A DNA stretch of 64,000 nt. It comes from Paludibacteraceae bacterium (GTDB taxonomy: Bacteria; Bacteroidota; Bacteroidia; Bacteroidales; Paludibacteraceae). Position 1 is the stretch's first letter; every line of letters begins with the position of its first letter. Below, piece by piece: positions 2,325-53,288 of the stretch. The notes below the pieces were generated by a model. It was not told where the DNA came from. It did no database searches and saw nothing but the letters and a program-made list of their open reading frames with translations. The stretch lies in the NCBI GenBank assembly GCA_024401435.1, contig JAKSLB010000007.1, positions 62,001 to 126,000 on the forward strand, in the 5' to 3' direction. The position numbers and the translations under genes are program-made.

Positions 2325-2865
2325 CTTCGTATAGTCCTTCGTTAATTCGCTTTAACACATCCATAGCAAGTTTCTTTGCGTCCATCAATGTAGTTTTCAA
2401 ACTATATTCAATGGCTTGTGTATTGATTGTTCCATCATCATTGTATAATGATTCAATATCCCATTTCGTGTTCTCTTTATTACACCAAATATGGTTTTTG
2501 CATTCATTTTCATCAAAAGTAATCCTATCTGGTGAATATAAAGTCAACTCATCACTATTCACATCATAACGCATCAACGATTTAAGAAAATTAAAACCAT
2601 TCAATGATGAATTCGTACATATACAAATGTACGAATTTTTTTCACTAAACGACCCACTTGTTGGATTCATTTTAATTTCCAACTCAATAGGCAATTTGTT
2701 ATTCTTTACAATGGTGCGGAAAGCCTTCTTAACATCTTTCCAATGTTTTTCTAGACTATCCCTATGTTCTTCAAATCGTTTATTCCAAGTGTCTAGATAC
2801 TCATCATATCTACCTTCCTTCTTGAGAAAGGCTTCAAGTTTGGATTCACTGAAATCATAGTTCAT
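2314..2865 (-). CDS. Unknown protein
   Basis: A 183-aa protein, helical and charged at the N-terminus (residues 1-55), then mixed. No known motif. It is the middle gene of a three-gene minus-strand operon and overlaps the next gene by 11 bases. Its ATG touches the stop of the gene upstream. Confidence 0.75.
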   Translation of the reverse strand: MNYDFSESKLEAFLKKEGRYDEYLDTWNKRFEEHRDSLEKHWKDVKKAFRTIVKNNKLPIELEIKMNPTSGSFSEKNSYICICTNSSLNGFNFLKSLMRYDVNSDELTLYSPDRITFDENECKNHIWCNKENTKWDIESLYNDDGTINTQAIEYSLKTTLMDAKKLAMDVLKRINEGLYEDEF

Positions 2866-3176
2866 TAAATTGCCTTCTTTTTCTTCTTTGACTTGCCCTT
2901 GAAAGTCATAAGCATACCAAGACTATTTTCCTTTACGATACCGACATCAATGGATTCAAGTTTATTTCCATCATCATCGGTCATATCGTAAAAGTTGGAC
3001 ATCTTGTCCATTTCAACAAGACTCTTGAACTTTTCAAGATAATCACCAACATTAAGACCTTCCATAAAGAAAGGTTTTTCATCACTTTCACACTTTAGTG
3101 CCACACTTGACTTCATAGACAAGTCAGTGACCTTGATTAGTTCCTCAATACGGCTAATTGCTACATTCAATCGCAT
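2865..3176 (-). CDS. Unknown small protein
   Basis: 103 aa from the ATG at 3176, chosen because GGAG lies 7-8 bases upstream. A longer reading would start inside the terminator-like stem at 3200-3219. The C-terminus is a lysine run (KGKSKKKKKA), suggesting nucleic-acid contact. First gene after DNA ligase on the same strand. Confidence 0.7.
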   Translation of the reverse strand: MRLNVAISRIEELIKVTDLSMKSSVALKCESDEKPFFMEGLNVGDYLEKFKSLVEMDKMSNFYDMTDDDGNKLESIDVGIVKENSLGMLMTFKGKSKKKKKAI

Positions 3177-3192
3177 ATGCATTCTCCATTGG

Positions 3193-3219
3193 TAAATAAG
3201 GTGGGCTTTAAAACCCACC
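3193..3219 (-). terminator. Weak stem-loop after DNA ligase
   Basis: GGTGGG...CCCACC stem (3200-3219) followed on the minus strand only by TTATTT. It probably ends or attenuates the ligase transcript. Confidence 0.45.
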
Positions 3220-3234
3220 CCTTATATGTATCAA

Positions 3235-4530
3235 TTAAGTCCATCGTTCTTCGCCATGAACACACTTCAATGTGGGGTGGCGAAGACTCCAATTACCATC
3301 CTTGTCCTGCGTTTCTTCAAGATACTTGATGGTAATGGTCTTTCCAATAATCAAGGAAGGGTCTTTGAACCATTCAATTCTCTGTTCCTTGGTAAGACCG
3401 CCACCAACACGGACATCACATCCCTTGTGCTTGATTACAAGTGCGGAAACTCCATCAAATTCCTTGTTGCCTTCACCCGCAACGGCATAGGTCTGCTTGC
3501 CAGTAACAACACCTTCAACAACCGCTTCAAAGTCATCAAAGTAAGGCTTGTACTTGAGCAAGTCCTTGGTACGACCGCTCTTGTAGGGTGCGTTCTTGCG
3601 GAGCATAAAACCTTCCCAGTTGTAGGTTTCAACATAGCCAGCCCACTTGTCAAAGATTTCTTGGGAGGTAATGAGTTCCTGTTCAAGAACCTTAACATTT
3701 TCATCCTTGGGGAGGTTGCAAAGCATTTCATAACGCTTGTCAAAGTTTTCACTTTCAACTTCGCCATTGAATTCTTCTTCGGTAACGATGTCAAAAATGC
3801 GGTACTGCGGATTTTCAATGGTGTAGTTCTTGCGTGTAACTTCCTTCATCAAACCCTGGAAATCATCTTCACCATTGGGAAGCAACTTGCAGCATTCACC
3901 ATCAAGAACCCAAGAACCTTCCTTGCCTTCCATAACATTAAAGATGTGTTCGGTAAGGTTGGAAAGGGTTGTGTATTCCTTTCCACTTCTAGAAAGGTAC
4001 TTGACAGTGCGTTCTTCCATATCAACATGGACATTCAATCTTACACCGTCAAGCTTCATAGAGGCATAATAAGAGCCATCAATGGGGTTAACACCCTTCA
4101 CATCCTTCAAGTGCTTTGCCAAAGCAACTTGGTAATCGGTATTTTCAATACCACACCACTTGCAATAGTTGGTGTTGGATACACCAATCTTCAAGTTGCG
4201 GTCAATGATGTTCACCAAAATCTTCTGGTCAATCTCACGGAACTGATTAATCATAGTGTTAACCGCTTCAATAGCAGCATTACCCGTGATGCTTCGCTTG
4301 TTCAATTCCACAAGCAAGTCGTGGAATGTATAATAGTTGAGGTCAATGGTAGCATTGCCACTTGTTGTGATGTTGATTGTGTTGCTTGTTACACCATACA
4401 CATAACTATTGTTGTAGGTGTCATCAAAAATCTTATCCATAAGGTCACAGCGTTCTTGAAGTACAAGTGCCTTCTTTTCAGTAGCCTTGGATGTCATTGC
4501 AATCTTTTCAAATACGGAAGAAATATTCAT
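3235..4530 (-). CDS. ATP-dependent DNA ligase (T4 gp30-like)
   Basis: The 431-aa protein has the nucleotidyltransferase motifs of ATP-dependent ligases: motif I SMKLDGVRL with the adenylated lysine K159, motif III WVLDGECC (near 207-214), motif IV EGFMLR and motif V LLKYKP. It seals nicks during replication and repair. The length fits a phage ligase with a small N-terminal domain and a C-terminal OB fold (T4 ligase is a little longer). AGAGG precedes the ATG and a class A promoter lies at 4554-4582. A long ORF on the opposite strand is a shadow of this gene. Confidence 0.95.
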   Translation of the reverse strand: MNISSVFEKIAMTSKATEKKALVLQERCDLMDKIFDDTYNNSYVYGVTSNTINITTSGNATIDLNYYTFHDLLVELNKRSITGNAAIEAVNTMINQFREIDQKILVNIIDRNLKIGVSNTNYCKWCGIENTDYQVALAKHLKDVKGVNPIDGSYYASMKLDGVRLNVHVDMEERTVKYLSRSGKEYTTLSNLTEHIFNVMEGKEGSWVLDGECCKLLPNGEDDFQGLMKEVTRKNYTIENPQYRIFDIVTEEEFNGEVESENFDKRYEMLCNLPKDENVKVLEQELITSQEIFDKWAGYVETYNWEGFMLRKNAPYKSGRTKDLLKYKPYFDDFEAVVEGVVTGKQTYAVAGEGNKEFDGVSALVIKHKGCDVRVGGGLTKEQRIEWFKDPSLIIGKTITIKYLEETQDKDGNWSLRHPTLKCVHGEERWT

Positions 4531-4553
4531 CTTTTACCTCTCTTTGTACCATT

Positions 4554-4582
4554 AATATAGAAAATTATATAACAATTGTCAA
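4554..4582 (-). promoter_or_regulatory. Class A promoter for DNA ligase
   Basis: Minus strand TTGACA, 17-bp spacer containing TTATATAATTTT, then TATATT. The ligase ATG is 24 bases downstream. Confidence 0.85.
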
Positions 4583-8373: not shown

Positions 8374-8548
8374 AATTCTGTTTCATCCACAATTCATAAT
8401 CGTTGATGTATTCAAACGCAAGCCAACCACCTTCAACCTTCGCCCAACGACTAGCCCACGGAGTCCTTCGCTTGGCAGTCGCACGGGTCTTGCATTCAAC
8501 AAAAACATTGTTTGAATATACAGGTTTTGAAATATATGTCTGTTTCAT
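8372..8548 (-). CDS. Unknown small protein
   Basis: 58 aa from ATG 8548, set by GGAG six bases upstream. Tryptophan-rich and basic in the middle (TAKRRTPWASRWAKVEGGW). It starts inside the end of the preceding gene, so the two form an operon from the class A promoter at 8889-8917. Confidence 0.65.
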   Translation of the reverse strand: MKQTYISKPVYSNNVFVECKTRATAKRRTPWASRWAKVEGGWLAFEYINDYELWMKQN

Positions 8549-8559
8549 TGTTAGCTCCA

Positions 8560-8865
8560 TTAAGCCAAAAAGCATTCCCAAAATTCATTGAAGTTCACGA
8601 TGCGATAAGTTTTACCAGCAACGGACTTATTTCCAAGCCACATAAAGAAAGATTCATTGAATCCTTTAAGCAACTCATCGTTCATACGGTTATCTTCAAT
8701 GCTAAAAGACACACAATCACTATTGAGGAAGATACGCACCTCAATACAATATACCTCAAATGAGTTGTCATCATCATCATACTTTGTGGTAAAAGAACCA
8801 TCAACGGTCATAGAGGTGATAGCATCAACATTGACAACAGTATTTTTAGGAAGATTCAAAAACAT
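8560..8865 (-). CDS. Unknown small protein
   Basis: 101 aa from ATG 8865, set by GGAG six bases upstream. Acidic; contains a DDDD run near residue 31. First gene behind a class A promoter. Not recognised. Confidence 0.7.
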   Translation of the reverse strand: MFLNLPKNTVVNVDAITSMTVDGSFTTKYDDDDNSFEVYCIEVRIFLNSDCVSFSIEDNRMNDELLKGFNESFFMWLGNKSVAGKTYRIVNFNEFWECFLA

Positions 8866-8888
8866 ATACAACTCCTTTGTTTTTATAT

Positions 8889-8917
8889 AATATACAAAAT
8901 TATATAAGGCTTGTCAA
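8889..8917 (-). promoter_or_regulatory. Class A promoter
   Basis: TTGACA, 17-bp spacer with CTTATATAATTTTG, TATATT on the minus strand, 24 bases before ATG 8865. Confidence 0.85.
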
Positions 8918-8926
8918 GTGGTGTTA

Positions 8927-8955
8927 TGAAAAAAACCTTCCTTTTTAGGAAGGTT
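8927..8955 (-). terminator. Terminator of the 8962-9975 gene
   Basis: AACCTTCC/GGAAGGTT stem followed on the minus strand by a T run. Confidence 0.75.
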
Positions 8956-8961
8956 TTGTTA

Positions 8962-9975
8962 TTATCTCTTGTTTATTATTGTTCTAAAGTGTGGTCTATT
9001 CACATCACCCCAAGCAAGGATTGTTCTAACATACCATTTTTGACCGACATTTCCATACTTCGTATCTTCAGTTTGTTCAACTAGGGCGGTTATGTTTTGA
9101 CGGAAATCGGTATCAACCTTAATCAACTTTGGTGAATGACCTGCGTAAGTACCGATTTCAAAATAAGCCCTATCAAGTTCTTGACGGACATATAGTTCCG
9201 CTTCATTACGCATTCTTTCATAAAATCTTGGTTCTTCCCATACCTTTGTCCTACACTTGTAATCCCAAGCGTTTCTTCCGTTTTCCTTGTCCTTGATGTA
9301 TCTTTCGTATTCCCTCTTGTACATATTTGTCATAACATCAATGTACTTGTCAACCATTACATCCTTGCCGAAATCTTCCATTTCTTGTATTGGCTTACAC
9401 ATAGTGTGAAGAATTCTTTCTTGATTTTCCCTTTTCTTGTCACTACGATTTCTTGCCCTTTGGCACTTTTCGTATTCTTCCTTTAGGTTCTTGTAAGCGG
9501 ATGCAAGTCTTTCAATCTTACCGCCAATGAAGTCAAGTTCTGAATCCCTCTTGTCATATTCAAGGTTTGCTTCAATGTCGGTTCTATCGTTCGGTCTATG
9601 GAAATCCCTTTCATTTGATTCAACGAAGGCATCCAACGCTTCTCTTGCGGTGTATGTATATGGGGTCTTGATGAAATCTTCCTCAATGTACATATAAAAG
9701 CCTTCTCTTGGCTTGGCATCCTTGCTTAAAGCGTAGGATACACCCTTTTGCTTTAGGTTTGGTTGAGAACAACCTTCAATTTGCTTTTTGAGATAGTCAT
9801 ATTTCTTCACAACCTTGGGGTCATTAAATTCTTCTTCCCCTATATTCTCAAACCATTCAACCGCTTCTCTTGCGTAATTGCTCTTTACAATTTCATATAT
9901 GATATTGAAGAAGGAGTTGTCTAGTTCTACTTCCTTCTTTTCGTTGATAATGTCGTATTTAGTTGGAATTCTCAT
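8962..9975 (-). CDS. Unknown highly charged, helical protein, probably virion-associated
   Basis: 337 aa, very rich in E, K, R and Y, with probable coiled coils (residues about 150-190). No ribosome site; AATATATAATCT sits directly before the ATG, the arrangement seen at virion genes here. Divergent from the large fibre/baseplate gene at 10014. Not recognised. Confidence 0.75.
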   Translation of the reverse strand: MRIPTKYDIINEKKEVELDNSFFNIIYEIVKSNYAREAVEWFENIGEEEFNDPKVVKKYDYLKKQIEGCSQPNLKQKGVSYALSKDAKPREGFYMYIEEDFIKTPYTYTAREALDAFVESNERDFHRPNDRTDIEANLEYDKRDSELDFIGGKIERLASAYKNLKEEYEKCQRARNRSDKKRENQERILHTMCKPIQEMEDFGKDVMVDKYIDVMTNMYKREYERYIKDKENGRNAWDYKCRTKVWEEPRFYERMRNEAELYVRQELDRAYFEIGTYAGHSPKLIKVDTDFRQNITALVEQTEDTKYGNVGQKWYVRTILAWGDVNRPHFRTIINKR

Positions 9976-10013: not shown

Positions 10014-13000
10014 ATGAAGCACATTGTTAGTAACGATTTCATTTATAGATTGATGAAAGGTCAAGTTCCTTCTGGTAAGGAAGGGATAAATGTAAAACTT
10101 GTACCTTTGAATGATAACCTAAAGTTGCCCTTTGACAAGAGGAATATTAGAACCACCGCTGATATTCCAAACTATAGCATATACGATGAATTCACCAACC
10201 CAGAGGGTGTTATAGAACCATTGACCGCATTTATGGTTGAATATAGCAAGACCAATGAAATCCGTGACAATGATGTTCCAACATACATTGATAGTGCAAA
10301 TAGCGGTAGTTCTGCTTATAGTGCTCTTTATCAAAATGTGTTGAATACCTATGATGCTAGATATAGAGAGGCTTTGAAAGTTTCTGAAAAGGCGGCTTAC
10401 GATTGGGTACAAGAAAAGTTAAGAATGATGAGTGGTTTCTACTTGGTTGGTAATAGCGACCACTTGAAGTACCTAGCCAATCTATGTAACGCAAAGGCTA
10501 ATTACAACAACACATTCAATATGTACATTTGTGATAGTGCTTTCCAATATGATGGTAGCTATCCCATCGGCACTTTTGAAAGACCTTATAATGGTATATT
10601 GTTTGGAAACTTTTGTACTCTTAAACTTCAAAAGGATTCCCAAACAAATGAAGCACAAAAAATTTATTGTAATGACTATACAAATGGTCTTATCGGTTGT
10701 CTTGGTGAAGAAGGTATTGTGTCTGACCTCTATATTGAAGGTGAATCAGATATAGTTTGTAGGAAGAAGATTTCTATAGAAACAATCAAGAACGAAAGTA
10801 GAAATGTCTACTTTGGTACACTTGTAGGCATAAACTATGGTCTAGTTAGAAACATATTTGTAAGTGCGGAACTTACATTGAAGAACTTTGTACCTGGCGT
10901 ATATTGTATAGGTGATAAGTCTGAAACATTGAGATACTACAATAACAATGATGAAAACTATCATTACCCAGACTTCTTCTGTGTAAACGCATCAACCAAT
11001 GCCGTTCCATATATCGGTTATTTCGCTCACGGACAACCTTGGGTAACATATAATCAAAAGCAATCATTAAATAATCCAGTGAGTTTCCTTAATTTTTCTG
11101 GTCCTGATGATTCAACATATTCCGCAAGTATGAACAATCCATATATTCCTTGGAGTTTTGGAATTATGCCAAATGTTATGCATACAAGTGGATTGTCTTT
11201 GTCAGGAATTCAAGAAACATGGAAGCCTTTTAAGGTATTTGATGGTACTAAAGGTTTTGTTCTTACCGCCAATCAATATTGTAACATAAATTCATTCTCA
11301 CATTTAATAACTAGGGATGAATTTATTAATCATGGAATAAGCACGGACACACAACCACAACAAACTCCGTTCGCTTGGTATCACGAAGAAGACCAATATG
11401 ATAACACAATACCGTTCCCCTCACCTACGGATGGAAATACTACCCAAAGAATGCACCAATTCTCACGCAACGCATATTATATCGGTGGTGTGATTGGTAT
11501 GAATAGAGGTACTATCATAAATGTGATGGCTAACAAGATGGTACATAGACTAAAATCCACCTTTGTTGGTTTCATAGGTGGTATAGTAGGAAAGGAAGTA
11601 GGAAACTTTGTATCAGACATTCACTTGAATGATGTCTATATGAAACTTGATGATGATTATATACCAGACAAGGTTGTGTTTGGTGATGGTGATGGTGATG
11701 TCAATAAGATGACTCTCACCTATGTTGAACCTACCATTTATGAATACGGAAGATTTTGTGGTGAAATCACTACGATGTCTAGGTCAACTTATTACGATAA
11801 AATATTGTACGATTTTACCAGTCATATAAAGCAAGCAGCAACGGAACAACAATTTCTAATATACAACCATAGCAAGTACACAAATGAAAATTTGTACTAT
11901 ATGTTTGACTTGGGTCTTTGCCATGGAGGAGAATTTGCTGGTGTTTTGCAGATTAATGGAAATGATACGGAATGTAATGCATACACAAATGTAAACATAA
12001 ACAAGAACAATGTGATGAAAGTGTATACAAACCTTACTGGTAAATACACAAATTTCATAGGTTATCAATCCGTAGATACCAAGATAAATCCTAGTATTTC
12101 ATTTGCATACCTACTTCCTGGATTTACTAAAAATACAGAAATAGATGGCATTAAAGATATGACTAACCACATATTTGGTGAAGAATGTTGTGAACTACCT
12201 ATATGTGAGGGCGTTAATAGAGCAATAAATCTACCTGGTGTATATCTACCTTCTGGTTATTTTCCTCTTACATATAAGAAATATGAAGGAAAATCTTATG
12301 AATTAGAATCCGTATATTATCCATCAGCATTGTCAACATATTTGACAACAAACGGAAGGAATTATCACAATCCAGCGGGCACTGTATTGGATACTTTGTG
12401 TGATGGCATTGAAAAGGCAGCTAATTCAACTGCCAAGTATTCATATAAATTATTTAGGAATAATTCGTATTGTGGTACATTGTTAATGTCAAATTTTATT
12501 GAAAACCACACTTATGTTCGCTCATATAGTTTATTGGAAGAAATAGGAAAAGAATACATTCCTTATGACATTAAGACTTTTAGTTTGACTACCTTACACC
12601 AAAAACATCCACAGATATTTGGAACGCATTCAAAGGTATCTTATAATTTAGCCGTATATAGTCCAATGTTATATGAGGGTGATTATCCATTTTCTTTATA
12701 TACAATTCCACATACTGGTGGAGAACACACAATCCGTTCATTTGACGGAATTATGCATTATTTGCCAACAAATATGAAGTATTCCTTTGCAGAACCTAAT
12801 AGGTATGATTCTGAATACGAAAGGTCTGATAATTTAATTCAATTATCTCAATATCATATTTGGGACTACGAGAAAGGTTATAGACAATACGGATATAACT
12901 GGTATACTAATTCTATGATTGTTGGTAACAAGAATCTATATTGGGGAGGAACTAGACATAATGGTGGTTTGTTGGAATGGGTCGTTCCAAATGATATATA

Positions 13001-13565
13001 TACACAAATCAATGACATAATGGTTATGCATTATAACTATGTATATGACAACGCTGCTAATGGTCAAACCAATATTCCATTTGTAACTGCTTTGAAATAC
13101 AATAGAGATGCATTACCAAAACCAGTTCTTGAAGAAGAATACTCTAACTATCAATTGTATGATATAAACTATGTTGGAAATGAATTTGTATATAATGGTT
13201 CACCCATAACAAATGAGTTCTTCTCTGGGAACATATATTGGGATAGTGGTGACAATGAAAATAATAAGCCAATGTTCAAATATAGTTCAAATTGCACATT
13301 TAATACAGCAAACAATTCAACTCAAATGTATTCTAGCTATATGTGTGTTGGAAATTGTCCATCACTAAAATATGTATTGAATAAATTTGAAGAAGATGAT
13401 ATTTATAAGGTTGATGCTTATCTACTCAATTCCAAAAACAACATAGATAGCATATTGGTTGTTGAGGATAATGGTAATGTCATTAGCATTATAGATAACA
13501 TAGGTCAAAAACTTGAAAGTGGTAGTTTCACCATTGATTTTTCACAAGGATTCATTTCGTTCTAA
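10014..13565 (+). CDS. Large virion protein, probably beta-helical fibre or baseplate component
   Basis: 1183 aa, rich in N, Y, S and G. Repeated glycine-turn segments such as GTLVGINYGLVRNIFV and GGVIGMNRGTIINVM resemble GLUG-type or beta-helix rungs. The N-terminal 150 residues contain helices (YDARYREALKVSEKAAYDWVQ) that could attach to the baseplate. Together with the next gene it forms a late unit. Enzymatic activity cannot be seen; receptor binding is inference. Confidence 0.75.
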   Translation: MKHIVSNDFIYRLMKGQVPSGKEGINVKLVPLNDNLKLPFDKRNIRTTADIPNYSIYDEFTNPEGVIEPLTAFMVEYSKTNEIRDNDVPTYIDSANSGSSAYSALYQNVLNTYDARYREALKVSEKAAYDWVQEKLRMMSGFYLVGNSDHLKYLANLCNAKANYNNTFNMYICDSAFQYDGSYPIGTFERPYNGILFGNFCTLKLQKDSQTNEAQKIYCNDYTNGLIGCLGEEGIVSDLYIEGESDIVCRKKISIETIKNESRNVYFGTLVGINYGLVRNIFVSAELTLKNFVPGVYCIGDKSETLRYYNNNDENYHYPDFFCVNASTNAVPYIGYFAHGQPWVTYNQKQSLNNPVSFLNFSGPDDSTYSASMNNPYIPWSFGIMPNVMHTSGLSLSGIQETWKPFKVFDGTKGFVLTANQYCNINSFSHLITRDEFINHGISTDTQPQQTPFAWYHEEDQYDNTIPFPSPTDGNTTQRMHQFSRNAYYIGGVIGMNRGTIINVMANKMVHRLKSTFVGFIGGIVGKEVGNFVSDIHLNDVYMKLDDDYIPDKVVFGDGDGDVNKMTLTYVEPTIYEYGRFCGEITTMSRSTYYDKILYDFTSHIKQAATEQQFLIYNHSKYTNENLYYMFDLGLCHGGEFAGVLQINGNDTECNAYTNVNINKNNVMKVYTNLTGKYTNFIGYQSVDTKINPSISFAYLLPGFTKNTEIDGIKDMTNHIFGEECCELPICEGVNRAINLPGVYLPSGYFPLTYKKYEGKSYELESVYYPSALSTYLTTNGRNYHNPAGTVLDTLCDGIEKAANSTAKYSYKLFRNNSYCGTLLMSNFIENHTYVRSYSLLEEIGKEYIPYDIKTFSLTTLHQKHPQIFGTHSKVSYNLAVYSPMLYEGDYPFSLYTIPHTGGEHTIRSFDGIMHYLPTNMKYSFAEPNRYDSEYERSDNLIQLSQYHIWDYEKGYRQYGYNWYTNSMIVGNKNLYWGGTRHNGGLLEWVVPNDIYTQINDIMVMHYNYVYDNAANGQTNIPFVTALKYNRDALPKPVLEEEYSNYQLYDINYVGNEFVYNGSPITNEFFSGNIYWDSGDNENNKPMFKYSSNCTFNTANNSTQMYSSYMCVGNCPSLKYVLNKFEEDDIYKVDAYLLNSKNNIDSILVVEDNGNVISIIDNIGQKLESGSFTIDFSQGFISF

Positions 13566-13567
13566 TT

Positions 13568-15253
13568 ATGAATACAATTTTATACAATAATGTCTTGGAA
13601 AGGATAGGAAAACCAGCGGCTGATGGTTACATAAAAGAACCTTTCCGTGGTTCTAACATAATTCCTTTGAAGGAGGAAGATAAACTATTAAAGCCAGAAG
13701 CAACGCAAAATGATATGAAGACTTTTGCGGAATATACAGATGAATCATTTGACAAAAGACTATTAAAAACTCCTATGGAGTGTAATGCACAAGAAACATA
13801 CTTTTGGAGTGATGACCTAGAAACTTGGTGTACATATAAGAAAGAATTTGAAGAAGGTGCAGCAGTAAATCTACACATATGGGATTGTGTTACATATCAA
13901 TGGGTAAGATATGATGCTTGCGTTTCATTAGTACCTATTTGGCAACAATTAATGGGCGTTAAGGTTATATCCAATATGCATATCTTCCATAGTAAGTTTC
14001 CTGAGAATCACGGATTTAATGTCCTTCAAAACGATGCCGAAATGGTAAACATATCAATCGTATCAAAACATAAAATTAACTATTCCATATATGATGATAG
14101 ATTCGCTGCAAAGAGAACCGTTGTAAAAGGAACTAAAACACAAAGATATTGGACTACCGCTCTTGGTTGTCCAATGATTCAAAGGACTTCATCTAATGAA
14201 TTGATGTATGCTATACGATTTACCGCTACCGATGGTCAATATACACCATACATATTCAATTCTGAAACAATGAAAACATTCCTACAATATGCACAAGAAG
14301 TGTTCGGTAGTGGTAAGGATAAGACTGTTGATGATACTGTTTGGAAGAAAATTTATGAAGTTCATCTATCTACGCTAGATGGTTATGCAATATATCCATA
14401 TTCATTTGAATTGAGACCATTATGGGGTCGTCAACTTGAAGGCGATAGAATTATATATGCTTCAACATATAACCTTAACATCGGCACATTGGAACAACAC
14501 ACTAACCCAACGGCTTATGCTAATATTCCACATAGCAACCCCAAGGATGTTGCAGCATATATATCAGCAAGTTGCGGTATAGAATACACAGAAGCAATGT
14601 TATGGGATAAAATAAACCAAGAGATTTTAAATATTTGGATAAAAGTAATGTCCGTCTATGAAAACGGATATGGTAAGAAATGGATATATCTTGATAATTT
14701 CAACAATATGCTTGCATACAACCAAGTGCTATTCAACAATCCATATACATTTGGATATTCAATAAATGGTGTTGATGATAGCAATCCTTTAGATGTAAAT
14801 AGAGCGTTCCTTGTAAATGATAACAAGGCATATAAGCACACAAACGGATATGATGAAAAATACATTGTGTTTGATTATCCAACAGGTACAAATGGATATA
14901 CCTTTACACTAAATGTGGCGTTATTAAATGCAGGAAACAATGGTAATAATGTAGTTTTATTCCAACCAGTGCCAGGTTATGATTTATGGGTATCAATCCG
15001 TGGAGAACAATTCGCAAATGGTACTGTTAATGAAAATAATATGACATATCAGTTCACAAACAAGCCTTGTAAGATTTATAGATATTTGAGACCACAACAA
15101 AGACATATTGATAGTAGTGAAGTGAATTCATACAAGCACTATGTATACAAGCCAAATGAATTGGGTGAAGGTACGGCAAAGTTGAAGTTTGATATAAATA
15201 ATATAGACATCAATGGTGATGTGCCATACGAAGGATTTGTACAAAAATGGTGA
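13568..15253 (+). CDS. Virion protein, probable fibre or baseplate component
   Basis: 561 aa, aromatic- and N-rich, two bases after the preceding stop. Its first residues (VLERIGKPAADGYIKEPFRGSN) are extended, then a mostly beta protein follows. It likely works with the 1183-aa protein. No family recognised. Confidence 0.75.
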   Translation: MNTILYNNVLERIGKPAADGYIKEPFRGSNIIPLKEEDKLLKPEATQNDMKTFAEYTDESFDKRLLKTPMECNAQETYFWSDDLETWCTYKKEFEEGAAVNLHIWDCVTYQWVRYDACVSLVPIWQQLMGVKVISNMHIFHSKFPENHGFNVLQNDAEMVNISIVSKHKINYSIYDDRFAAKRTVVKGTKTQRYWTTALGCPMIQRTSSNELMYAIRFTATDGQYTPYIFNSETMKTFLQYAQEVFGSGKDKTVDDTVWKKIYEVHLSTLDGYAIYPYSFELRPLWGRQLEGDRIIYASTYNLNIGTLEQHTNPTAYANIPHSNPKDVAAYISASCGIEYTEAMLWDKINQEILNIWIKVMSVYENGYGKKWIYLDNFNNMLAYNQVLFNNPYTFGYSINGVDDSNPLDVNRAFLVNDNKAYKHTNGYDEKYIVFDYPTGTNGYTFTLNVALLNAGNNGNNVVLFQPVPGYDLWVSIRGEQFANGTVNENNMTYQFTNKPCKIYRYLRPQQRHIDSSEVNSYKHYVYKPNELGEGTAKLKFDINNIDINGDVPYEGFVQKW

Positions 15254-18006: not shown

Positions 18007-18744
18007 TTAGTGATAGTTGTATTCACTACAAGGCTTTCCGTTCCATAGATGACAAGAACCATAACTGGAAATCTTGATATGTGGTTCACCCTTGTAAAGG
18101 TATATTGCCTTTTTCATTGGTTCACCAATCACCTTTGTGCCACAAGTAACCTCTGAAGCACCTACGGAAGGATTATAATAGCCTTCTTCATTTTCAACAT
18201 TCTTTGACATTTCTACTATTTCAACCATACTAGAACCAATTATCTTTGTCACCTTATAGAAATGAACGATATTTGCTTCATAGCCGTATTGATATACGAA
18301 AATGTCACCTACATTGACCTTATCAGTTGAAGAAGTTTCATATTCCTCATGCAAGTCCTTAATCATCTTTTGGAAATGTTCAAACTTCAATGCACCTTCG
18401 CCAGTGCTCTTTACTGACTTCATTCTCTTGGTCTTGTATGCCAAACGATACCAAACATGGTCACTCCATCTTGTCTTGGGGTTCTTCCATATGTACACCA
18501 AGTTGCCATTCATATCAATACATAGCTTATCACAATATCTACGATATTCGGCATTGTCCTCTGGAATATCATCTTCGGTCAACTTTGTAAAGTCATTATA
18601 AGAAATCACACCACTTACTTCTTTCTTCTTGTTCTTTGCTATGATTTCATCAAGTTCGGCATCCATAGCGTCCATATAGGCATCTTCATCCAATATATGT
18701 CGCACCTTATTAAATTCATTCTCGGTCAAAAGTATAGTCTTCAT
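18007..18744 (-). CDS. Unknown late protein
   Basis: 245 aa. N-terminal helices rich in D, E and K, then a beta domain (VNVGDIFVYQYGYEANIVHFYKV) of possible SH3-like character. ATATATAACTT sits directly before ATG; no ribosome site. Divergent from the gp53-like gene. Confidence 0.7.
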   Translation of the reverse strand: MKTILLTENEFNKVRHILDEDAYMDAMDAELDEIIAKNKKKEVSGVISYNDFTKLTEDDIPEDNAEYRRYCDKLCIDMNGNLVYIWKNPKTRWSDHVWYRLAYKTKRMKSVKSTGEGALKFEHFQKMIKDLHEEYETSSTDKVNVGDIFVYQYGYEANIVHFYKVTKIIGSSMVEIVEMSKNVENEEGYYNPSVGASEVTCGTKVIGEPMKKAIYLYKGEPHIKISSYGSCHLWNGKPCSEYNYH

Positions 18745-20015: not shown

Positions 20016-21047
20016 TTAAACAGTCCAAACCCAACTATCATCATCACTATCAGCTTTGACATACCTTGAATAGAACGGGTCACCATCAAAGTCATCATTT
20101 TCATCTTCATCTTGAGGTGAGAATTCATATTCAAATTCACCTAGTGTAGTGATGATAGCAGCCCACACAAGGCTCATAACAAGGTCATCGTGTCCAGCAA
20201 CGGACATATAAGATTCCTTTACCCTTTCAAATTGCTTTAGTTCGCTAATGGTATCCTTGTCATACACTACAAGTTTTCTTTCTTCCATTAGTTTCTTTAG
20301 ATTCAAGCAACCAGAAATCTTGGTCTTGTGTGTACACTTCACTCCTGGGTTTATGTTGTCATAGTGTACAAGTTCCTCATATTCAAGTTCATTCCAAAGA
20401 GAATATATGCATAGTTCACCTGGTCCGTTGTTCTCAACTAGGGTCTTTGGGCAACCATACATTTTTGCAACCTGTAAAATCTTTTCGGCAAATACATTTG
20501 GTCTTATCTTGTTGTTTGCGTATACACATACTTGTTCAATTCTTTCCGTGGATACAATCTTCAAGACTTGTATGCAAGAATAGTCATTTTGAGTTCCATC
20601 ACCGACATCAACACCAATTATGTATTGATAGTTCTTGTCATATTTCTCATATATTCTACCATCAATTCCATCAAAGGTTTCTATTGGTTCTTTTTGTATA
20701 AGAGAACCAAGAACCATACCATCAATCAATGTAGTTGAAGAACCTAGGAATGAGCAATTATGGTTATTGAACTTTACACCGCCTATGTTTGCCGTATAGT
20801 AATGACCTTCAACATTTACTGGTTCGTAAAAGTCTTGTGTTGTCGGTTCTATTGAAGCAATCTTCTTTCCAATCAACATATCACCGACATTTAAAGTATT
20901 TGCCACAATTTCTTTATCATCTAGGAATATATGGTTCTTACCACACTTAATGACAAATCCATCATCAAATGTAATCTTTATTCCAGTCTTTACAACTTTT
21001 TGAATAAATGCGTAATTCTTATATTCATTGTTAAACTTAATCTTCAT
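20016..21047 (-). CDS. terL: Large terminase C-terminal nuclease half fused to a C-terminal split-intein fragment
   Basis: 343 aa. Residues 1-97 are the C-part of an intein: block B with KCGKNHIF (H39) and ANTLNVGDML, block F near YEPVNVEGHYYTAN, and block G ending HN (H96, N97) before Cys98, the expected +1 residue. From C98 the protein is T4 gp17-like: CSFLGSSTTLIDG, then an RNase H-type nuclease with GVDVGDG (D147), LVENNGPG (E205) and GHDDLVMSL (D287/D288). The ATPase half is absent, so it should be a separate gene ending in the short N-intein. The layout matches the AceL-TerL type of atypically split intein. An in-frame TAG upstream and no earlier start codon argue against a longer protein. 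Confidence 0.9.
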   Translation of the reverse strand: MKIKFNNEYKNYAFIQKVVKTGIKITFDDGFVIKCGKNHIFLDDKEIVANTLNVGDMLIGKKIASIEPTTQDFYEPVNVEGHYYTANIGGVKFNNHNCSFLGSSTTLIDGMVLGSLIQKEPIETFDGIDGRIYEKYDKNYQYIIGVDVGDGTQNDYSCIQVLKIVSTERIEQVCVYANNKIRPNVFAEKILQVAKMYGCPKTLVENNGPGELCIYSLWNELEYEELVHYDNINPGVKCTHKTKISGCLNLKKLMEERKLVVYDKDTISELKQFERVKESYMSVAGHDDLVMSLVWAAIITTLGEFEYEFSPQDEDENDDFDGDPFYSRYVKADSDDDSWVWTV

Positions 21048-21144
21048 TGATGTGAACCATCCTTCATTATCTATTTTTGAAAAAAAGTTTTCCTAAAATG
21101 AATGTTTGGCATATATATTTTAAATTGTAAATAAGGGCTTTAAT

Positions 21145-25692: not shown

Positions 25693-25954
25693 ATTTTTAT
25701 TTGACATTTTCTTTTTGTGAAACGATATAACAAATGTAAGGGTTGAATTAAAAAAAATTAAAAAAAATTAATAAAAATCCTTGACAAGCCTTATATAATT
25801 TTGTATATTAGGTGTAGAAGAAAAGAGAATTGCGAAGGTTTTCGTAGGACTTGAAAAAAATTAAAAAAATTCAAGATTATCCCTTGCCAAACCTTTTATA
25901 ATTTTCTATCATTGTAAACACAAGACCAATAAAGGTCACAAAAGAGGTAAAAAA
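25693..25954 (+). promoter_or_regulatory. Tandem class A promoters and leader of the MoxR gene
   Basis: Two promoters lie 103 bases apart: TTGACA-N17-TATATT (25781-25809) and TTGCCA-N17-TATCAT (25884-25912). Between them is a CTTGAA/TTCAAG hairpin (25850-25875) and A-rich tracts. A small GACC/GGTC hairpin and AGAGG precede ATG 25955. No ORF is visible. Confidence 0.75.
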
Positions 25955-27151
25955 ATGAACATTAAGACTTTCAAAGCAGTTTCCAAGCTCATCGGTGCTA
26001 ATGCAGAAGACAAGGTGTCCACCGCAATCCTTATTAAGGGTTGCCACGGCATTGGCAAGAGCCAGATTATCAACCAGATTGCCAAGGAACTTGGTATGGA
26101 ATGCGTAACCTTTATGTGTTCTCAGGTTGCCGATGTGGGTGATGTCATCGGTTTGCCGAGCATCAAGCATTACAAGGTTAATGTCGCAACTGGCGAAGAA
26201 ACCGAAATCCAGGAAAGCGAAATTGTGGCACTTGACCGAACCAAGTATAGCCACATCAGCCGTACCGTTTTCAACCCTCCCTATTGGTACAAGGCAGACA
26301 AGCCTGTTGTCCTTTTCTTTGATGAAATCAATCGTGCTCGTAAGGAAATCTCCAATGCTCTTATGCAGATTACCCTTGAACACAAGATTTTGAACTTTTC
26401 CCTTCCAAAGGGCACTCGCATCTTTGCAGCTATCAACCCCAACGATAGCGGTGAATACGATGTTGAAGATATGGACCCCGCAAAGTATGACCGCTTTGCA
26501 GTCTATGACCTTGTTCCTTCTCCGCAGGAATGGCTTGAATTTGCCGAAGCCGAGGGTATTCACCCTTGCATCATCAACTACATTTCCAAGAACCACTCTG
26601 ACCTTGACCCTTATTCCAACCAGCAGTTGGTGAAGGTTGCCAATAGCGGTGGTAACAATGTCCTTCCTTCCCGTAGAAGTTGGCATCAGTTGTCTGATGA
26701 CTTGAAGAATGGTGACAAGGAACACCTCTTTGATGGCAAGGAAGGCAAGAAGTTCCTCATTGAACTTGTAAGCGGTTATGTCGGTAATGCTACCGCAGTG
26801 AACTTTGCAGCAGCTTACAATCTTGATGATGGTGTTGACATTGAAAAGATGCTCACCAAGTTCACCAAGACCCATAAGGCAAAGTTGGCTGCAATGGACG
26901 CACCCGCAGCAACCAAGTTGGTCAATTCCGTCCGTAACCTTATCAAGGATGGTAGCATCAATGTTGATGAGAATGTGAGCGAAAACTTCTACAACATTCT
27001 TACCTCCTTCCGTAAGGACATTCAGGTTGCCCTTGTTCAGAATGTCATCTTTGAAGCCGTTGAAAAGATGGAAGATTGGATTGGCAAGTTGAACAACCGC
27101 AAACTCAATGACTACTTTGCAAGTGTCATTAGTATGTCCGCTATGGTATAA
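25955..27151 (+). CDS. MoxR-type AAA+ ATPase
   Basis: 398 aa. Walker A GCHGIGKS (29-36), Walker B VVLFFDEINRA (118-128) and sensor 1 FAAINPND (158-164) place it with MoxR/RavA-like AAA+ proteins. Codons are host-like, so expression is probably high. The next gene encodes a VWA-domain protein, the usual partner: such pairs remodel or insert metal into target complexes. The target in this phage is unknown. The long reverse-strand ORF here is a shadow. Confidence 0.9.
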   Translation: MNIKTFKAVSKLIGANAEDKVSTAILIKGCHGIGKSQIINQIAKELGMECVTFMCSQVADVGDVIGLPSIKHYKVNVATGEETEIQESEIVALDRTKYSHISRTVFNPPYWYKADKPVVLFFDEINRARKEISNALMQITLEHKILNFSLPKGTRIFAAINPNDSGEYDVEDMDPAKYDRFAVYDLVPSPQEWLEFAEAEGIHPCIINYISKNHSDLDPYSNQQLVKVANSGGNNVLPSRRSWHQLSDDLKNGDKEHLFDGKEGKKFLIELVSGYVGNATAVNFAAAYNLDDGVDIEKMLTKFTKTHKAKLAAMDAPAATKLVNSVRNLIKDGSINVDENVSENFYNILTSFRKDIQVALVQNVIFEAVEKMEDWIGKLNNRKLNDYFASVISMSAMV

Positions 27152-27168
27152 TAAGCCATTTACCTCTA

Positions 27169-27220
27169 CCTCCAAGGGAGTTTCTATGTGTCTCAACTCC
27201 CTTGGGGGTTATTTTTTTAA
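27169..27220 (+). terminator. Strong terminator after MoxR gene
   Basis: CTCCAAGGGAGTT/AACTCCCTTGGGGG stem with a T run at 27212-27219. Confidence 0.85.
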
Positions 27221-29135: not shown

Positions 29136-31334
29136 ATGGCAGGTATATCAAAGAATGTTGAAGGCGTTAAGCCTTGTAAGACCGCATTATTTAGAAATGA
29201 TGCAATTTACTATAAAGAAATCGGTGATGCGGATTTCAAGACCGCACCAGTTGAATATGGTTATTATACCAAGACAAATCAAAAGACCGAATGGGTTGAT
29301 GTTGAAGGCAATTGCTTGGAATACAAGACAACCGATACGAAGGATTTCTTGGATAAGTTGAGAACCATAGGAACATTCCCTATGTGTGAATCAGACTTGA
29401 CGGAAGTTCAAAGATTCCTACATAACAGGTATGATTTCTTGGATGACAAGGCGAAAACTAGTGATTATAGAATTGCCTATTTTGATATTGAAACCCAAAC
29501 TGGTAGAAAGTATCCATTAGCAACAAAGATTACTACGGAAAATCACGGACAATTGATTGCATTGGAAATTGAAATGATTGACAAGACAATGAATGTCTTT
29601 GATATTGAAGCCAATGAATGGAAGCCTTACAACGAAAGTTGTTACTATGTGGTTGAATTCCCAGAACCTAGTGATGCTAAATACCCAATCAACCTAATAA
29701 CAGTTTATAGCAACATCACCAATACTACATATACTTGGGGCTTGTTCAAGTACAAGGGGGACAAGATTCCAAACTATGTGTACATTGAAGATGAATATGA
29801 AATGGCTAAACACTTTGTAAAGTGGTTTCATGACCAAAAGTTTGACATCATAACAGGTTACAATAGTGAAACATTTGATATTCCGTACATTTGCAATAGA
29901 TTTAGAAACATTTGTTTGGAAAGGGGTGTTGATGAACATAATCTAACAAAGCACCTTTCACCATTTAATTCAAAGCCAAGAATCAAGACTGTAAAAGATG
30001 ATTTCGGTCTTGAACAAACCACCTATGAATTTGACGGATTGTATCATATTGATATGTTGAAACTTGTCAAGAAATATGGTGGAATTAACGATATTCCTTC
30101 TTGGAAACTTGATGTCGTTTGTAAGGAAATCCTAGGTGTAGGTAAATTGGAATATGAAGGTTCTATCATAGACATCTATATGAAAGACCCAGACACATAT
30201 GCCGAATACAATGTGATAGATGTGGTGAGAACTTATCAATTAGATGAAAAGTTGAAATTGTTTGATAACATCATCAACCTTTCAAATGAATGTCTTATTC
30301 CATTGAACAAGTACGATTCACAGGTCAATGTTTGTGAAGGTGCTGCGTTGAAATATTCCCATAGAGAAGGCATTATCATTTGGGATAGAAAGAGCAAGCC
30401 AGCGGTTGACTTATATAAGCAAGAGGGTTGGTACAAGGTCATTCTAAACAATGGAAAGATTGAATGGCAAAATTGCGAAGATGGGCAAGAAACATTCCCA
30501 GACTTTAAGGTTAAGGCTGGTTGGTGTGATGCCGTACCTGGTCGTTATGACCATGTTATGTCTGCGGACATTACATCCTCTTATCCGCACCACATTAGAA
30601 TGTACAACATTTCACCAGAATGCAAGGTTGTAAATCCCACCGAAATTGATATAAAGACTAGAAACCTTATCAAGTCAAAGATTAACAACATATACTTCAC
30701 TAGGGATAGGGAAGGTGTTGTGCCGATGGTATCTAGAATCTTCTTTGCAAAGAGAAAGGAATTCAAGAAACTAATGAAGAAGGCAGGTGAGGAAGGAAAC
30801 CTTGAAATGGTTCAAATCTATAATGCTTCCCAGTTGTCAATGAAGTTGTTGATTAACTCCATTTATGGTTGTTGTTTGAACAATTATAGCCGTTTCTTTG
30901 ACATTGATTGTGCAAGAGCAATTACAAGAGCTGCAAGATGTACAATCCGTTATTTAAAGAGAAGTACGGACACATTCTATCAATCAAGTGTTATGTTGGA
31001 ACATATGAACACATACCTTCCTACCATTTGCTTGGATGACAAGTATTACACCGCAAGTGAAATGATTAAGGTTCGTATGGATGGTGATTCCACCGAAACC
31101 GAGTTTGAAATTGAAGCCAAGGAATTTGATACCAATTCACATATCCTAAATGCTGGTATCAAGACTGTGAACATTGATGGTTATTCTTTCAATCCAGATG
31201 ATGAAATCACAATCTATGATAATAGCGAAAAGGAAGAGAAGAAAAGGGAAAAGGTCATATTGGCAAAGGACTTTGACATAAATAACCATCTTCTTGGAAT
31301 TGATGAAGAAAGTGGAAAACCAATAATAGTATAG
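29136..31334 (+). CDS. Family B DNA polymerase (T4 gp43-like), N-terminal part lacking motif C
   Basis: 732 aa. Exonuclease motifs are present: FDIET (D117, E119), ITGYNSETFDIPY and YNVIDVV. Polymerase motif A is ADITSSYP (near 477) and motif B is KLLINSIYG (near 570). The YGDTDS motif C, the rest of the palm and the thumb are missing, so this chain alone should be inactive as a polymerase. After the helix following motif B come about 120 residues unlike family B polymerases, with two related patches (IEAKEFDTNSHILNAG, ILAKDFDINNHLLG) resembling the post-block-B part of intein folds. A second gene must supply motif C. Confidence 0.85.
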   Translation: MAGISKNVEGVKPCKTALFRNDAIYYKEIGDADFKTAPVEYGYYTKTNQKTEWVDVEGNCLEYKTTDTKDFLDKLRTIGTFPMCESDLTEVQRFLHNRYDFLDDKAKTSDYRIAYFDIETQTGRKYPLATKITTENHGQLIALEIEMIDKTMNVFDIEANEWKPYNESCYYVVEFPEPSDAKYPINLITVYSNITNTTYTWGLFKYKGDKIPNYVYIEDEYEMAKHFVKWFHDQKFDIITGYNSETFDIPYICNRFRNICLERGVDEHNLTKHLSPFNSKPRIKTVKDDFGLEQTTYEFDGLYHIDMLKLVKKYGGINDIPSWKLDVVCKEILGVGKLEYEGSIIDIYMKDPDTYAEYNVIDVVRTYQLDEKLKLFDNIINLSNECLIPLNKYDSQVNVCEGAALKYSHREGIIIWDRKSKPAVDLYKQEGWYKVILNNGKIEWQNCEDGQETFPDFKVKAGWCDAVPGRYDHVMSADITSSYPHHIRMYNISPECKVVNPTEIDIKTRNLIKSKINNIYFTRDREGVVPMVSRIFFAKRKEFKKLMKKAGEEGNLEMVQIYNASQLSMKLLINSIYGCCLNNYSRFFDIDCARAITRAARCTIRYLKRSTDTFYQSSVMLEHMNTYLPTICLDDKYYTASEMIKVRMDGDSTETEFEIEAKEFDTNSHILNAGIKTVNIDGYSFNPDDEITIYDNSEKEEKKREKVILAKDFDINNHLLGIDEESGKPIIV

Positions 31335-43040: not shown

Positions 43041-43370
43041 TTATTTAATTCCGTAGTATTTCAACACTAACTTTGAAATGTTCTTCACACTACCATACTT
43101 GAACTTTCTTATGAACCTAGGAGTATTTGGTTCATAGAATTCGTATGTACATACACTAAATCCAACACATTCTTCACCATTTCTAGTTGTGACAATCCAA
43201 TCTTTGATATGAAACGCAATTGTGCCAAACTTTGTCGTATTGAAGAACAATCCGCACTTGTTTAAACCTTCATATTCTCCAGTTACACCCAAAGCCAAGA
43301 AAATCTTTTCTTTTTCAAAGACAACCAATTTCTTGGCTCTTTCAATTTCAACACTTTCATCTACATTCAT
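43041..43370 (-). CDS. Unknown small protein
   Basis: 109 aa, single beta-rich domain (FGTIAFHIKDWIVTTRNGEECVGFSVCTYEFY) with a closing helix. TATATTATC lies just before the start; no ribosome site. May be a one-domain relative of the array proteins. Confidence 0.65.
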   Translation of the reverse strand: MNVDESVEIERAKKLVVFEKEKIFLALGVTGEYEGLNKCGLFFNTTKFGTIAFHIKDWIVTTRNGEECVGFSVCTYEFYEPNTPRFIRKFKYGSVKNISKLVLKYYGIK

Positions 43371-43388
43371 AATGATAATATAGCAAAT

Positions 43389-44378
43389 TTAATTTTGATT
43401 ATAGTAAAGTTTTGTAAACTTTTGCATTATTTCTTGCTTGTTGTCATATTCACTCATATCAAGATATTCTTGCATTAGCTTGAAAATGTCAATGTTGTCA
43501 TCAACCTCAATCTCAACCTTTTCTTCTTGCTTGTCAACCATAACAACATTAGCTGGATTGTCTAGATTAAGGTTCAATATCCAATCACTAACATCCGTCA
43601 ACTTTTCACCATATTCAACAGGTACTTTAACATCAACAAAGTCATTTGCACGGATGTCACCATTGGTTTCATTAGGGTATGTGATTGTCTTATATCTTGA
43701 ACTAACCACATTTTCAATGAACTTTGTAGTATTATCGTTCAATTCTAGTATTGTGAACCCCTTTTGCTCATTTTCATCAATCCTAGTCAATTCATACGGA
43801 GAACCAACATAGGTTATGTTATTGAAAGTATTTCGCTTATGGAAATGACCAGTATAGATATAGTTCCAATTATGACAAAGGTCTTCTTGTGCAATACCCT
43901 TTTCGCATACATTAACCTTGTCCATCTTCATACCTATAATGTCAAGATGTCCAAAGCAATACTTCGCCTTTAGGTCTGGCAACGGCTTTTCACACAACCA
44001 AGGCAACATTGTAACCTCAACGCCATCAAATGAAACATTTGTGGGTTTCTCATATACTACAATGTTGTTTATTTCCGCTATGTTCTTTAATGAGTTAACT
44101 TCGGTTGTAGTTGTATAGTAGATGTCGTGATTACCTGTAATAATGTGTATATTAAAGTCCTTGCTCAAATCCTTGAACAATTCAACTGTATGATTTTCAA
44201 TATACACATTCACATTAGTCCTATCATCAAACACATCACCTAATATGATAATGGTCTTTATTTCATTCTGTAATAGATATTCTTTCATTTGGTCATAGAA
44301 CTTCATTTGAGATTTGAAGAAACCTACATTGTTCTTATGAGCACCAAAATGTAAATCGGCAATTAGACAAACTTTCAT
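43389..44378 (-). CDS. Recombination nuclease subunit, gp47/SbcD/Mre11-like
   Basis: 329 aa. Phosphoesterase motifs in order: IADLHFG, ILGDVFDDR, ITGNHDIYY, and GHFHKRNT, followed by a cap domain. T4 gp47 works with the gp46 ATPase in end resection and host DNA breakdown. No gp46 gene is visible in this window. The neighbouring clamp and RegA genes echo the T4 47-46-45-44-62-regA-43 order. Confidence 0.9.
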   Translation of the reverse strand: MKVCLIADLHFGAHKNNVGFFKSQMKFYDQMKEYLLQNEIKTIIILGDVFDDRTNVNVYIENHTVELFKDLSKDFNIHIITGNHDIYYTTTTEVNSLKNIAEINNIVVYEKPTNVSFDGVEVTMLPWLCEKPLPDLKAKYCFGHLDIIGMKMDKVNVCEKGIAQEDLCHNWNYIYTGHFHKRNTFNNITYVGSPYELTRIDENEQKGFTILELNDNTTKFIENVVSSRYKTITYPNETNGDIRANDFVDVKVPVEYGEKLTDVSDWILNLNLDNPANVVMVDKQEEKVEIEVDDNIDIFKLMQEYLDMSEYDNKQEIMQKFTKLYYNQN

Positions 44379-44478
44379 ACACTAAATATAAAATTGGATG
44401 AATATGTTTTTTTTAGGAAAAATCAAAATGGAAGATTATATATTTCAAGTACAAAGATTAATCAAAAGGATAATCAAA

Positions 44479-45231
44479 ATGACTGAACATCAAATGACAT
44501 ATTCTCCAGAGTTCATTGAAAAGATGATTGAACTCTCCAAGATTTCCCACTACCTAGTATTCAACAAGAGCAGTGATGGTTCTTCCATTGAATGCTATGG
44601 TCAGAATGGTGGTAAGTGTGTTCTTTACAAGGTTGTTGCTCCTTGTGATAAGTTCAACTTCGCTTGCAACGAACTTGCTTTCCACGAAACTAGCTATCTA
44701 AACCAGACCTATGAATACCTCAAGACCAAGGATGAAAACGGAAACACCAAGTATCCTATCTTCGTGGTTAGTGAAGATGAAGGCGTGGCAAAGCACTTCC
44801 ACATTCTAAATGAAAACATTTCTTGCTCCACCCTCACTGGTGACACTTCCATTATGGAATTGTGCGAAGAAATTGATGATACCGAACTTTTCGCACCTGA
44901 AAGCATTATCGCAAAGTTTGATATGTCCAAGAATGTGCTAAAGGAAATCAATAAGTACATTAGCATCAACTCCGCAACTCATGTCAAGTTCAAGTTTGAA
45001 CAAGGCTCTAGCGAAAGCAACATTGAAATCTTCAACTCCAAGTTGGGCTTGAAGACCAAGTACAAGATTACTCTCAACGCACCCGCAACAAAGAGTGATG
45101 AATTCTCCATTGTTAAGGACGGTTTCCAGCTTGCCATTGATGGTGATACCACCGTTGATGTGTCTAGTGATGGTCTATTCCGTCTTAACTACAAGGATGC
45201 CGATTTCTTAATGAACATCTATTTGAGTTAA
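44479..45231 (+). CDS. Probable sliding clamp, gp45-like
   Basis: 250 aa from ATG 44479, set by AAAGGA; ATG 44428 also has AGGA and would add 17 basic residues. Codon use turns host-like from 44479. Two beta-rich halves (residues 1-135 and 145-250), the second with IIAKFDMSKNVLKEINKYI and FSIVKDGFQLAIDGDTTV, fit a gp45 clamp domain. Adjacent RegA supports this because the two are close in T4. Sequence similarity itself is weak. Confidence 0.6.
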   Translation: MTEHQMTYSPEFIEKMIELSKISHYLVFNKSSDGSSIECYGQNGGKCVLYKVVAPCDKFNFACNELAFHETSYLNQTYEYLKTKDENGNTKYPIFVVSEDEGVAKHFHILNENISCSTLTGDTSIMELCEEIDDTELFAPESIIAKFDMSKNVLKEINKYISINSATHVKFKFEQGSSESNIEIFNSKLGLKTKYKITLNAPATKSDEFSIVKDGFQLAIDGDTTVDVSSDGLFRLNYKDADFLMNIYLS

Positions 45232-53126: not shown

Positions 53127-53274
53127 TCCACCATTCATCTTCGCTAGGTTGTCTATCGCACCACCAAGGATTATCACCACAATCATCTGGCGAATCACTT
53201 GATGATGCAAGCAATGTAGTCTTGAAGTTGAATTCTAGGACTTTAACCTTTGGCTTTACATATTCTTTCTTCAT
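53122..53274 (-). CDS. 50-aa late peptide resembling Bacteroidota LLASS-type peptides
   Basis: ATG 53274 to TGA 53122. It begins MKKEYVKPKVKVLEF, then LLASSS, then an acidic, Trp/Cys-bearing tail. Short peptides of the form MKKxYxxPxVxVVxF...LLA(G/S)S are abundant in Bacteroidota genomes. AATAAATAATTAGT stands directly before ATG, nearly the same as before the 1183-aa virion protein, so it is probably late. Function unknown. Confidence 0.6.
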   Translation of the reverse strand: MKKEYVKPKVKVLEFNFKTTLLASSSDSPDDCGDNPWWCDRQPSEDEWWK

Positions 53275-53288
53275 ACTAATTATTTATT
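53275..53288 (-). promoter_or_regulatory. Late box of the LLASS peptide
   Basis: AATAAATAATTAGT followed by ATGAAG; compare CATAAATAAGTAGT followed by ATGAAG at 10000-10019. Confidence 0.6.

Follow-up and report, generated by a model that had tools for sequence, protein, structure and literature searches.

How a phage could build a complete large terminase subunit (TerL) from a gene that begins with an intein piece and has no ATPase beside it is the question raised by one reading frame in the DNA analyzed here, a stretch of 64,000 nucleotides (the "window") corresponding to C172:62001-126000 in a Paludibacteraceae assembly of 3.83 Mb (204 contigs, 93% complete). C172 is a phage contig of 137,303 bp. 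Our reading, drawn from sequence and given a probability of roughly 0.9, is that the frame encodes the C-half of a TerL interrupted by an intein of the AceL/GOS/Cat type, split at an atypical place, that the N-half is encoded 72 kb away, and that the two products would be joined by trans-splicing. We regard the intein as an addition to a known family, that of the AceL/GOS/Cat TerL inteins, and the dispersed gene layout as the novel part.

The frame lies on the minus strand, which the first-pass annotation of this DNA had left unstated; the plus strand of the same interval carries many stops. The frame opens 15 codons 5' of the ATG at 21047, with no further ATG in those codons, and the Shine-Dalgarno-like GAAGGATGG together with its own ATG indicates that the C-half has a separate translation start (Table 1). 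The first-pass annotation had described an intein C-piece with H39 and H96-N97, followed by Cys98 and a gp17-type nuclease, and this description is borne out both by the residues and by matches to Pfam Terminase_6C (aa 144-296, E 9.7e-10), T4 gp17 (3ezk; aa 94-305, E 2.4e-22) and the solved intein C-fragment 6dsl_B, "CatC" (aa 6-87, E 6e-9, by sequence). On the C-half, the Pfam Intein_splicing model stayed below threshold (E 0.088) and the NCBIfam profiles gave no intein match. An AlphaFold2 model built on an alignment of the window protein with 52 IMG/VR rows (mean pLDDT 84.0, pTM 0.69) was matched by Foldseek to 6dsl_B (E 2.2e-6, TM-score by target 0.63) and to gp17 (3cpe, E 2.8e-17; 3c6a and 3ezk also matched); gp41-1 was matched at E 9.1e-4, VidaL weakly (E 0.048), and further inteins again less well than gp41-1. 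The C-half (intein and nuclease) is 28-39% identical to the 52 aligned relatives. H39, a residue outside the scan pattern that fetched these relatives, is kept in 53 of 53 aligned C-halves; HNC at the scanned loci was required by that pattern and hence lends no independent support.

Table 1. Predicted features of the split terminase and of the two-piece DNA polymerase; columns give feature, position (window numbering unless marked C172), strand and basis.
terL C-half gene, C-intein and gp17-type nuclease, 343 aa	20016..21047	-	sequence, profile, fold
Intein C-fragment, aa 1-97	20757..21047	-	6dsl_B by sequence and Foldseek; aligned with six cultured-phage C-halves
Block B histidine, H39	20931..20933	-	alignment of 53 C-halves
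Block G His96-Asn97, intein end	20757..20762	-	sequence, alignment
Cys98, +1 nucleophile, first extein residue	20754..20756	-	sequence, alignment, intein-free L013
C-extein, RNase H-like nuclease of TerL, stop codon included	20016..20756	-	Terminase_6C, 3ezk, 3c6a
Shine-Dalgarno-like GAAGGATGG, 5' of ATG	21057..21065	-	read directly in sequence
terL N-half (ATPase and N-intein), 292 aa	C172:9173-10051, outside window	+	Terminase_6N, gp17, CatN
Family B DNA polymerase, first piece	29136-31334	+	phrog_262 positions 24-569 of 856
DNA polymerase, second piece	C172:19029-20036, outside window	+	phrog_262 positions 573-844

The ATPase half had been reported as absent from the window, correctly, and we found it on the same contig. 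It is the sole Terminase_6N match in the whole assembly (E 1.9e-23; gp17, E 7.2e-35) and the one ORF returned by the genome search that the first-pass annotation had proposed, for a gp17-type ATPase ending in a Cys-first block A. The N-half ends in a tail that begins with this block (..QEFE|CLDGDTEVEV..), and the first 30 residues of the tail match the solved N-fragment 6dsl_A, "CatN" (E 0.00025). The missing N-intein had been expected to be very short, at roughly 25 residues; very short it is, although its actual length is 34 aa. The N-half breaks off at ..QEFE|C and the C-half resumes at HN|CSFLGSS, which places the insertion site directly before Cys +1, and the intein-free TerL of locus L013 (FRQEYECEFIGSS; QEYECEFIGSS) has a Cys at the +1 place.

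A complete separate terL elsewhere, the finding that would have spoken against the split according to the first-pass annotation, did not turn up: the sole Terminase_6C match in the 93% complete assembly is the window ORF itself, so no complete second terL was found. This bears on the idea that another complete terminase is in use and that both ORFs are relics. The assembly is divided among 204 contigs, and a relative (G303) does have a second ATPase-like frame, at 258676-259242, without an N-intein; against this, one Terminase_6N and one Terminase_6C match are found assembly-wide, both frames are open and their catalytic residues are conserved, and we think it highly improbable that the two ORFs are relics.

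An atypically split class 1 intein acting by trans-splicing fits the fragment sizes (34/97) and the residues Cys1, His39, His96-Asn97 and Cys98, and the AceL-type layout proposed at the outset agrees with the sizes given in PMC11766414 (AceL 25/104, GOS 37/115, Cat 30/104). For the AceL, GOS and Cat TerL inteins, the same source describes a disordered short N-fragment that folds onto a partly folded C-fragment (PMC11766414). In the window phage, the two half-proteins would be made separately, the short N-intein would dock into the C-fragment, whose HINT fold is unfinished, Cys1 would attack, the ATPase would move to Cys98 and Asn97 would cyclize; the complete TerL could then package DNA.

Splicing of the pair is a prediction, and the halves might alternatively form a noncovalent two-subunit terminase in which the intein fragments only hold them together, splicing having been lost. 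The same phage has a two-piece family B DNA polymerase with no detectable intein, so it may tolerate two-piece enzymes. The first piece of this polymerase stops just before the DTDS motif, with 100-110 extra residues at its end and about 47 at the start of the second piece. A second intein splitting the polymerase was considered but found no support: the tail starts near a Cys, but gave no significant match in Pfam, PHROGs or a three-mini-intein profile. The polymerase is in one piece in the relatives G301 and G311, and none was found when G303 was searched for it. In the terminase, however, Cys1, His39, His96, Asn97 and Cys98 are all retained despite 28-39% identity to the 52 relatives, which argues that a noncovalent pair is improbable and leaves trans-splicing as the preferred reading.

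The two halves are 72.0 kb apart on the same contig, on opposite strands and convergent, an arrangement that the first-pass annotation could not have seen from the window. End repeats were looked for on C172 and none were found, so that the contig may be incomplete; a circular C172 would give the same polarity and a comparable distance (63.5 kb) the other way round, but we make no such claim. Since both halves sit on a single MAG contig, and since inverting the stretch between them once would yield a tandem order, a chimeric join that parted truly tandem halves has to be weighed. Relatives from other assemblies, however, also have separated halves on opposite strands. In G303 (291 kb), the C-half is at 95387-96427 (-) and the N-half at about 154971-155906 (+), 58.5 kb apart; in G311 (contig C134, 173 kb), they are at 43731-44681 (-) and 102580-103482 (+), and in G313, near-identical to G311 in both genes, at 43074-44021 (-) and 102157-102747 (+), in each case 58 kb apart. 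A baseplate-hub-like gene lies 1-4 kb from the C-half in the window phage, G311 and G303. Because these independently assembled relatives have separated halves, misassembly is unlikely, and we give it very little chance of accounting for the layout seen here.

These relatives came from searching 20 records with Terminase_6N (6 matched) and 12 with the C-half. G301 (142 kb) has the halves as divergent neighbors, C (-) and N (+), with about 90 bp between their frames; in G315 (L113), the frame for the ATPase lies just upstream; and the halves of G312 are on different contigs, so they are not shown to belong to one phage. The N tails of G301, G303, G311, G313 and G312 all start with Cys and carry a block A-like stretch. 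G311 and G313 have four further Terminase_6N matches each, on other contigs, and no ATPase match (Terminase_6N) was found in G298, G300, G302, G308, G309 or G310, which are fragments of 8-75 kb. The ten C-halves scoring best against that of the window (L155, L102, L086, L041, L106, L154, L096, L153, L179 and L173; 32-39% identity) include eight in which 2.5 kb or more of upstream sequence contains no ATPase frame, one with it on the other strand (L086) and one at an end (L106); the next-best, L085, is tandem.

Around the two terL halves of our phage, a Pfam search of the 11 frames lying within about 3 kb of one or the other matched no endonuclease. HNH genes occur ahead of the N-half at a distance of 6-8 kb (C172:634-1341 and 2766-3311), and two TnpB/OrfB_IS605-like genes (C172:40285-41508, +, and 43534-44751, -) lie between the halves, at 30-34 kb from the N-half. 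The sequence TATATATAAGG occurs in three copies in the contig, each at most 60 bp 5' of a frame (the N-half, the head protease and a baseplate gene); we considered it as a late promoter and set it aside, as it is absent upstream of the C-half and three copies are too few to conclude.

To see how common such layouts are, we turned to a census by DNA pattern (HNCxFxG[ST]xxTLI, with a variant one residue longer), which captures only inteins ending in HN followed by Cys and is hence biased and a lower bound. The IMG/VR scan with the C-half protein had given no relative, and that with the N-half gave 12 loci, each one uninterrupted TerL frame (one clipped at its start). In IMG/VR the pattern matched at least 120 and 10 stretches, in GTDB 9, and all 139 of those listed were read; a TerL match was absent from three of the nine GTDB loci (L174, L177 and L178). 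The junction of C-intein and nuclease is in frame in at least 135 loci. Among the matches listed, an ATPase frame lies upstream on the same strand in 89 of 135, both halves are in one frame in 6, the upstream sequence (2.5 kb or more) has no ATPase frame in 9 and that frame is adjacent on the other strand in 1; 23 are too near an end to tell and 7 are cut. The gap between the tandem halves is 300 bp or more in 68 of these 89 and shorter in 21, and a same-strand frame covers more than 60% of the gap in all 68 (again among the matches listed). Nine of ten gap frames scanned match Pfam models of endonucleases or of domains associated with them (GIY-YIG, HNH_3, NUMOD3, DUF559/MTES_1575); the remaining one (L085) matches only DUF7487 and a zinc-binding model. 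In the ATPase frames among the matches listed, Cys or Ser falls exactly at the model end in 75 of 91, and tails are 24-47 aa long in 87 of 91. Some census loci are duplicates, with 107 different rows among the 122 used for the tree.

Six cultured phages also have tandem halves. They were read from a tblastn search of 50,697 phage records with the C-half (2,440 matched, 16 covering at least 80% of the query): Vibrio phages 1.244.A, VP-1 and Va1, Aeromonas phage PX29, Serratia phage 92A1 and Providencia phage PSTRCR_127. In all six, the N-half immediately precedes the C-half on the same strand and its N-intein sits at the shared insertion site. Each also has an endonuclease-like domain, placed between the halves or attached to one of them: GIY-YIG in 1.244.A and VP-1, SegE GIY-YIG in PX29 and PSTRCR_127 and, weakly (E 0.0024), in 92A1, and DUF559/MTES_1575 in Va1. 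The PX29 record itself notes that 17A "contains putative N-intein" and that 17B "contains putative GIY-YIG endonuclease and C-intein." VP-1 (L023), L060 and L085 have, beside the split intein, a second one in the P-loop of the TerL ATPase (contiguous in VP-1), second-intein matches in this ATPase also occur in L043, L092, L164 and others, and a Nitratidesulfovibrio phage (L028) has a contiguous intein at a different TerL site.

The ancestral layout may then have been tandem with an endonuclease in the gap, the endonuclease having been lost in this lineage and a rearrangement having parted the halves; the direction from tandem to dispersed is taken from the layout frequencies because our trees are unrooted. 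In a quick tree of intein and nuclease (122 rows), the window joins dispersed loci (SH-aLRT 81) within a 14-row set that includes L085 and L081 (support 96), and L175 is a separate dispersed row. A careful tree built from the nuclease part alone, on 51 selected rows with L175 and Va1 among those omitted, places the window outside a group of L085, L081 and the dispersed loci (supports 98/99 for the 11 rows and 99/91 for the ten), so that L085, which is tandem, and L081, an edge locus, group with the other dispersed loci. Holding nine rows together (the window, six dispersed, one divergent and one edge) was not rejected (p-AU 0.295), and the branch leading to the window row is long in both trees. 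One or two origins of dispersal, besides that of L175, are possible on these alignments.

Once the halves were separated, the intein could presumably not be lost without breaking an essential gene. Trans-splicing may thereby have become an obligatory assembly step for the packaging motor in one large-phage lineage, and could serve as a gate that times packaging; we offer this as a speculative proposal that is, on balance, unlikely. On this reading, with the halves in different operons and on opposite strands, an intact terL could be regained neither by exact removal of the intein nor by simple recombination, and the motor would form only if both genes, each under its own control, were expressed. 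A single protein family includes tandem layouts with or without an endonuclease-like gene, one-frame, divergent, and halves 58-72 kb apart, which allows a direct comparison of the steps by which a mobile element becomes something that an essential gene cannot do without. At least 89 tandem natural pairs, with N-fragments mostly of 24-47 aa, are a resource for protein labeling; and annotators should be aware that the phage marker gene terL may seem missing or truncated when it is merely split.

Several other features of these contigs deserve mention. A tag like MKxxLLTENE[FY]xxVxxILxE occurs in 7 of 175 frames, within the first 25 residues in 6 of the 7 (window 18007-18744, -; C172:4479-4889, 8518-9135, 10070-11353, 11423-11836, 13080-14012 and 53146-53469), with no match in 20 shuffles of all frames. 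The capsid-targeting sequences of T4, cut by the head protease after I/L-x-E, resemble the shared tag of these C172 frames, and a head protease gene lies at C172:11884-12687. The long window frames 3226-4560 (+) and 25877-27196 (-) lie opposite long frames at 3235-4530 (-) and 25955-27151 (+) and are probably shadows of the coding strand. Contig C139 of the same assembly (L033-L036) has further intein-like matches, which fall in a frame of 1165 aa and another of 781 aa.

Split genes of this kind have precedents. The "fractured genes" with split inteins that Dassa reportedly described in 2009 are said to have one gene for N-extein-IN and another for IC-C-extein, adjacent and with an endonuclease gene between them. 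Our tandem relatives likewise carry an endonuclease-like frame between the halves; in our phage, the halves lie 72 kb from each other, and no endonuclease was found next to them (11 frames, Pfam). In the cyanobacterial DnaE split intein, the halves lie far apart on opposite strands, a precedent for dispersal, but that intein has the canonical long-N/short-C form and serves a cellular polymerase, whereas the window intein is 34/97 in a phage TerL. The six cultured phages, including PX29 with its gp17A/gp17B, share the insertion site and the split, with C-halves 31-33% identical, but have their halves as tandem neighbors with an endonuclease-like domain, unlike the window phage. In the open-licence literature, titles and abstract starts among the matches listed described no terL with widely separated halves, and a separation this wide appears unusual. 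An intein-bearing split PolB is described for phage MIJ3 (PMC6892783) and, as a different solution, a terL joined by RNA splicing for ICP1 (PMC10448857). AceL-TerL, GOS-TerL and Cat-TerL (PMC11766414; PDB 6dsl) have in common with the intein of our phage the TerL host, the very short N- and long C-fragment and the Cys at +1, and Cat (6dsl) matches both of its fragments by sequence and the C-fragment also by fold. Our intein is sized 34/97, and its two genes lie 72 kb apart on opposite strands; the comparison with AceL and GOS is one of proteins. As in a T4 gp17-type TerL, the ATPase and the RNase H-like nuclease are both present here, but on two polypeptides (Terminase_6N and Terminase_6C).
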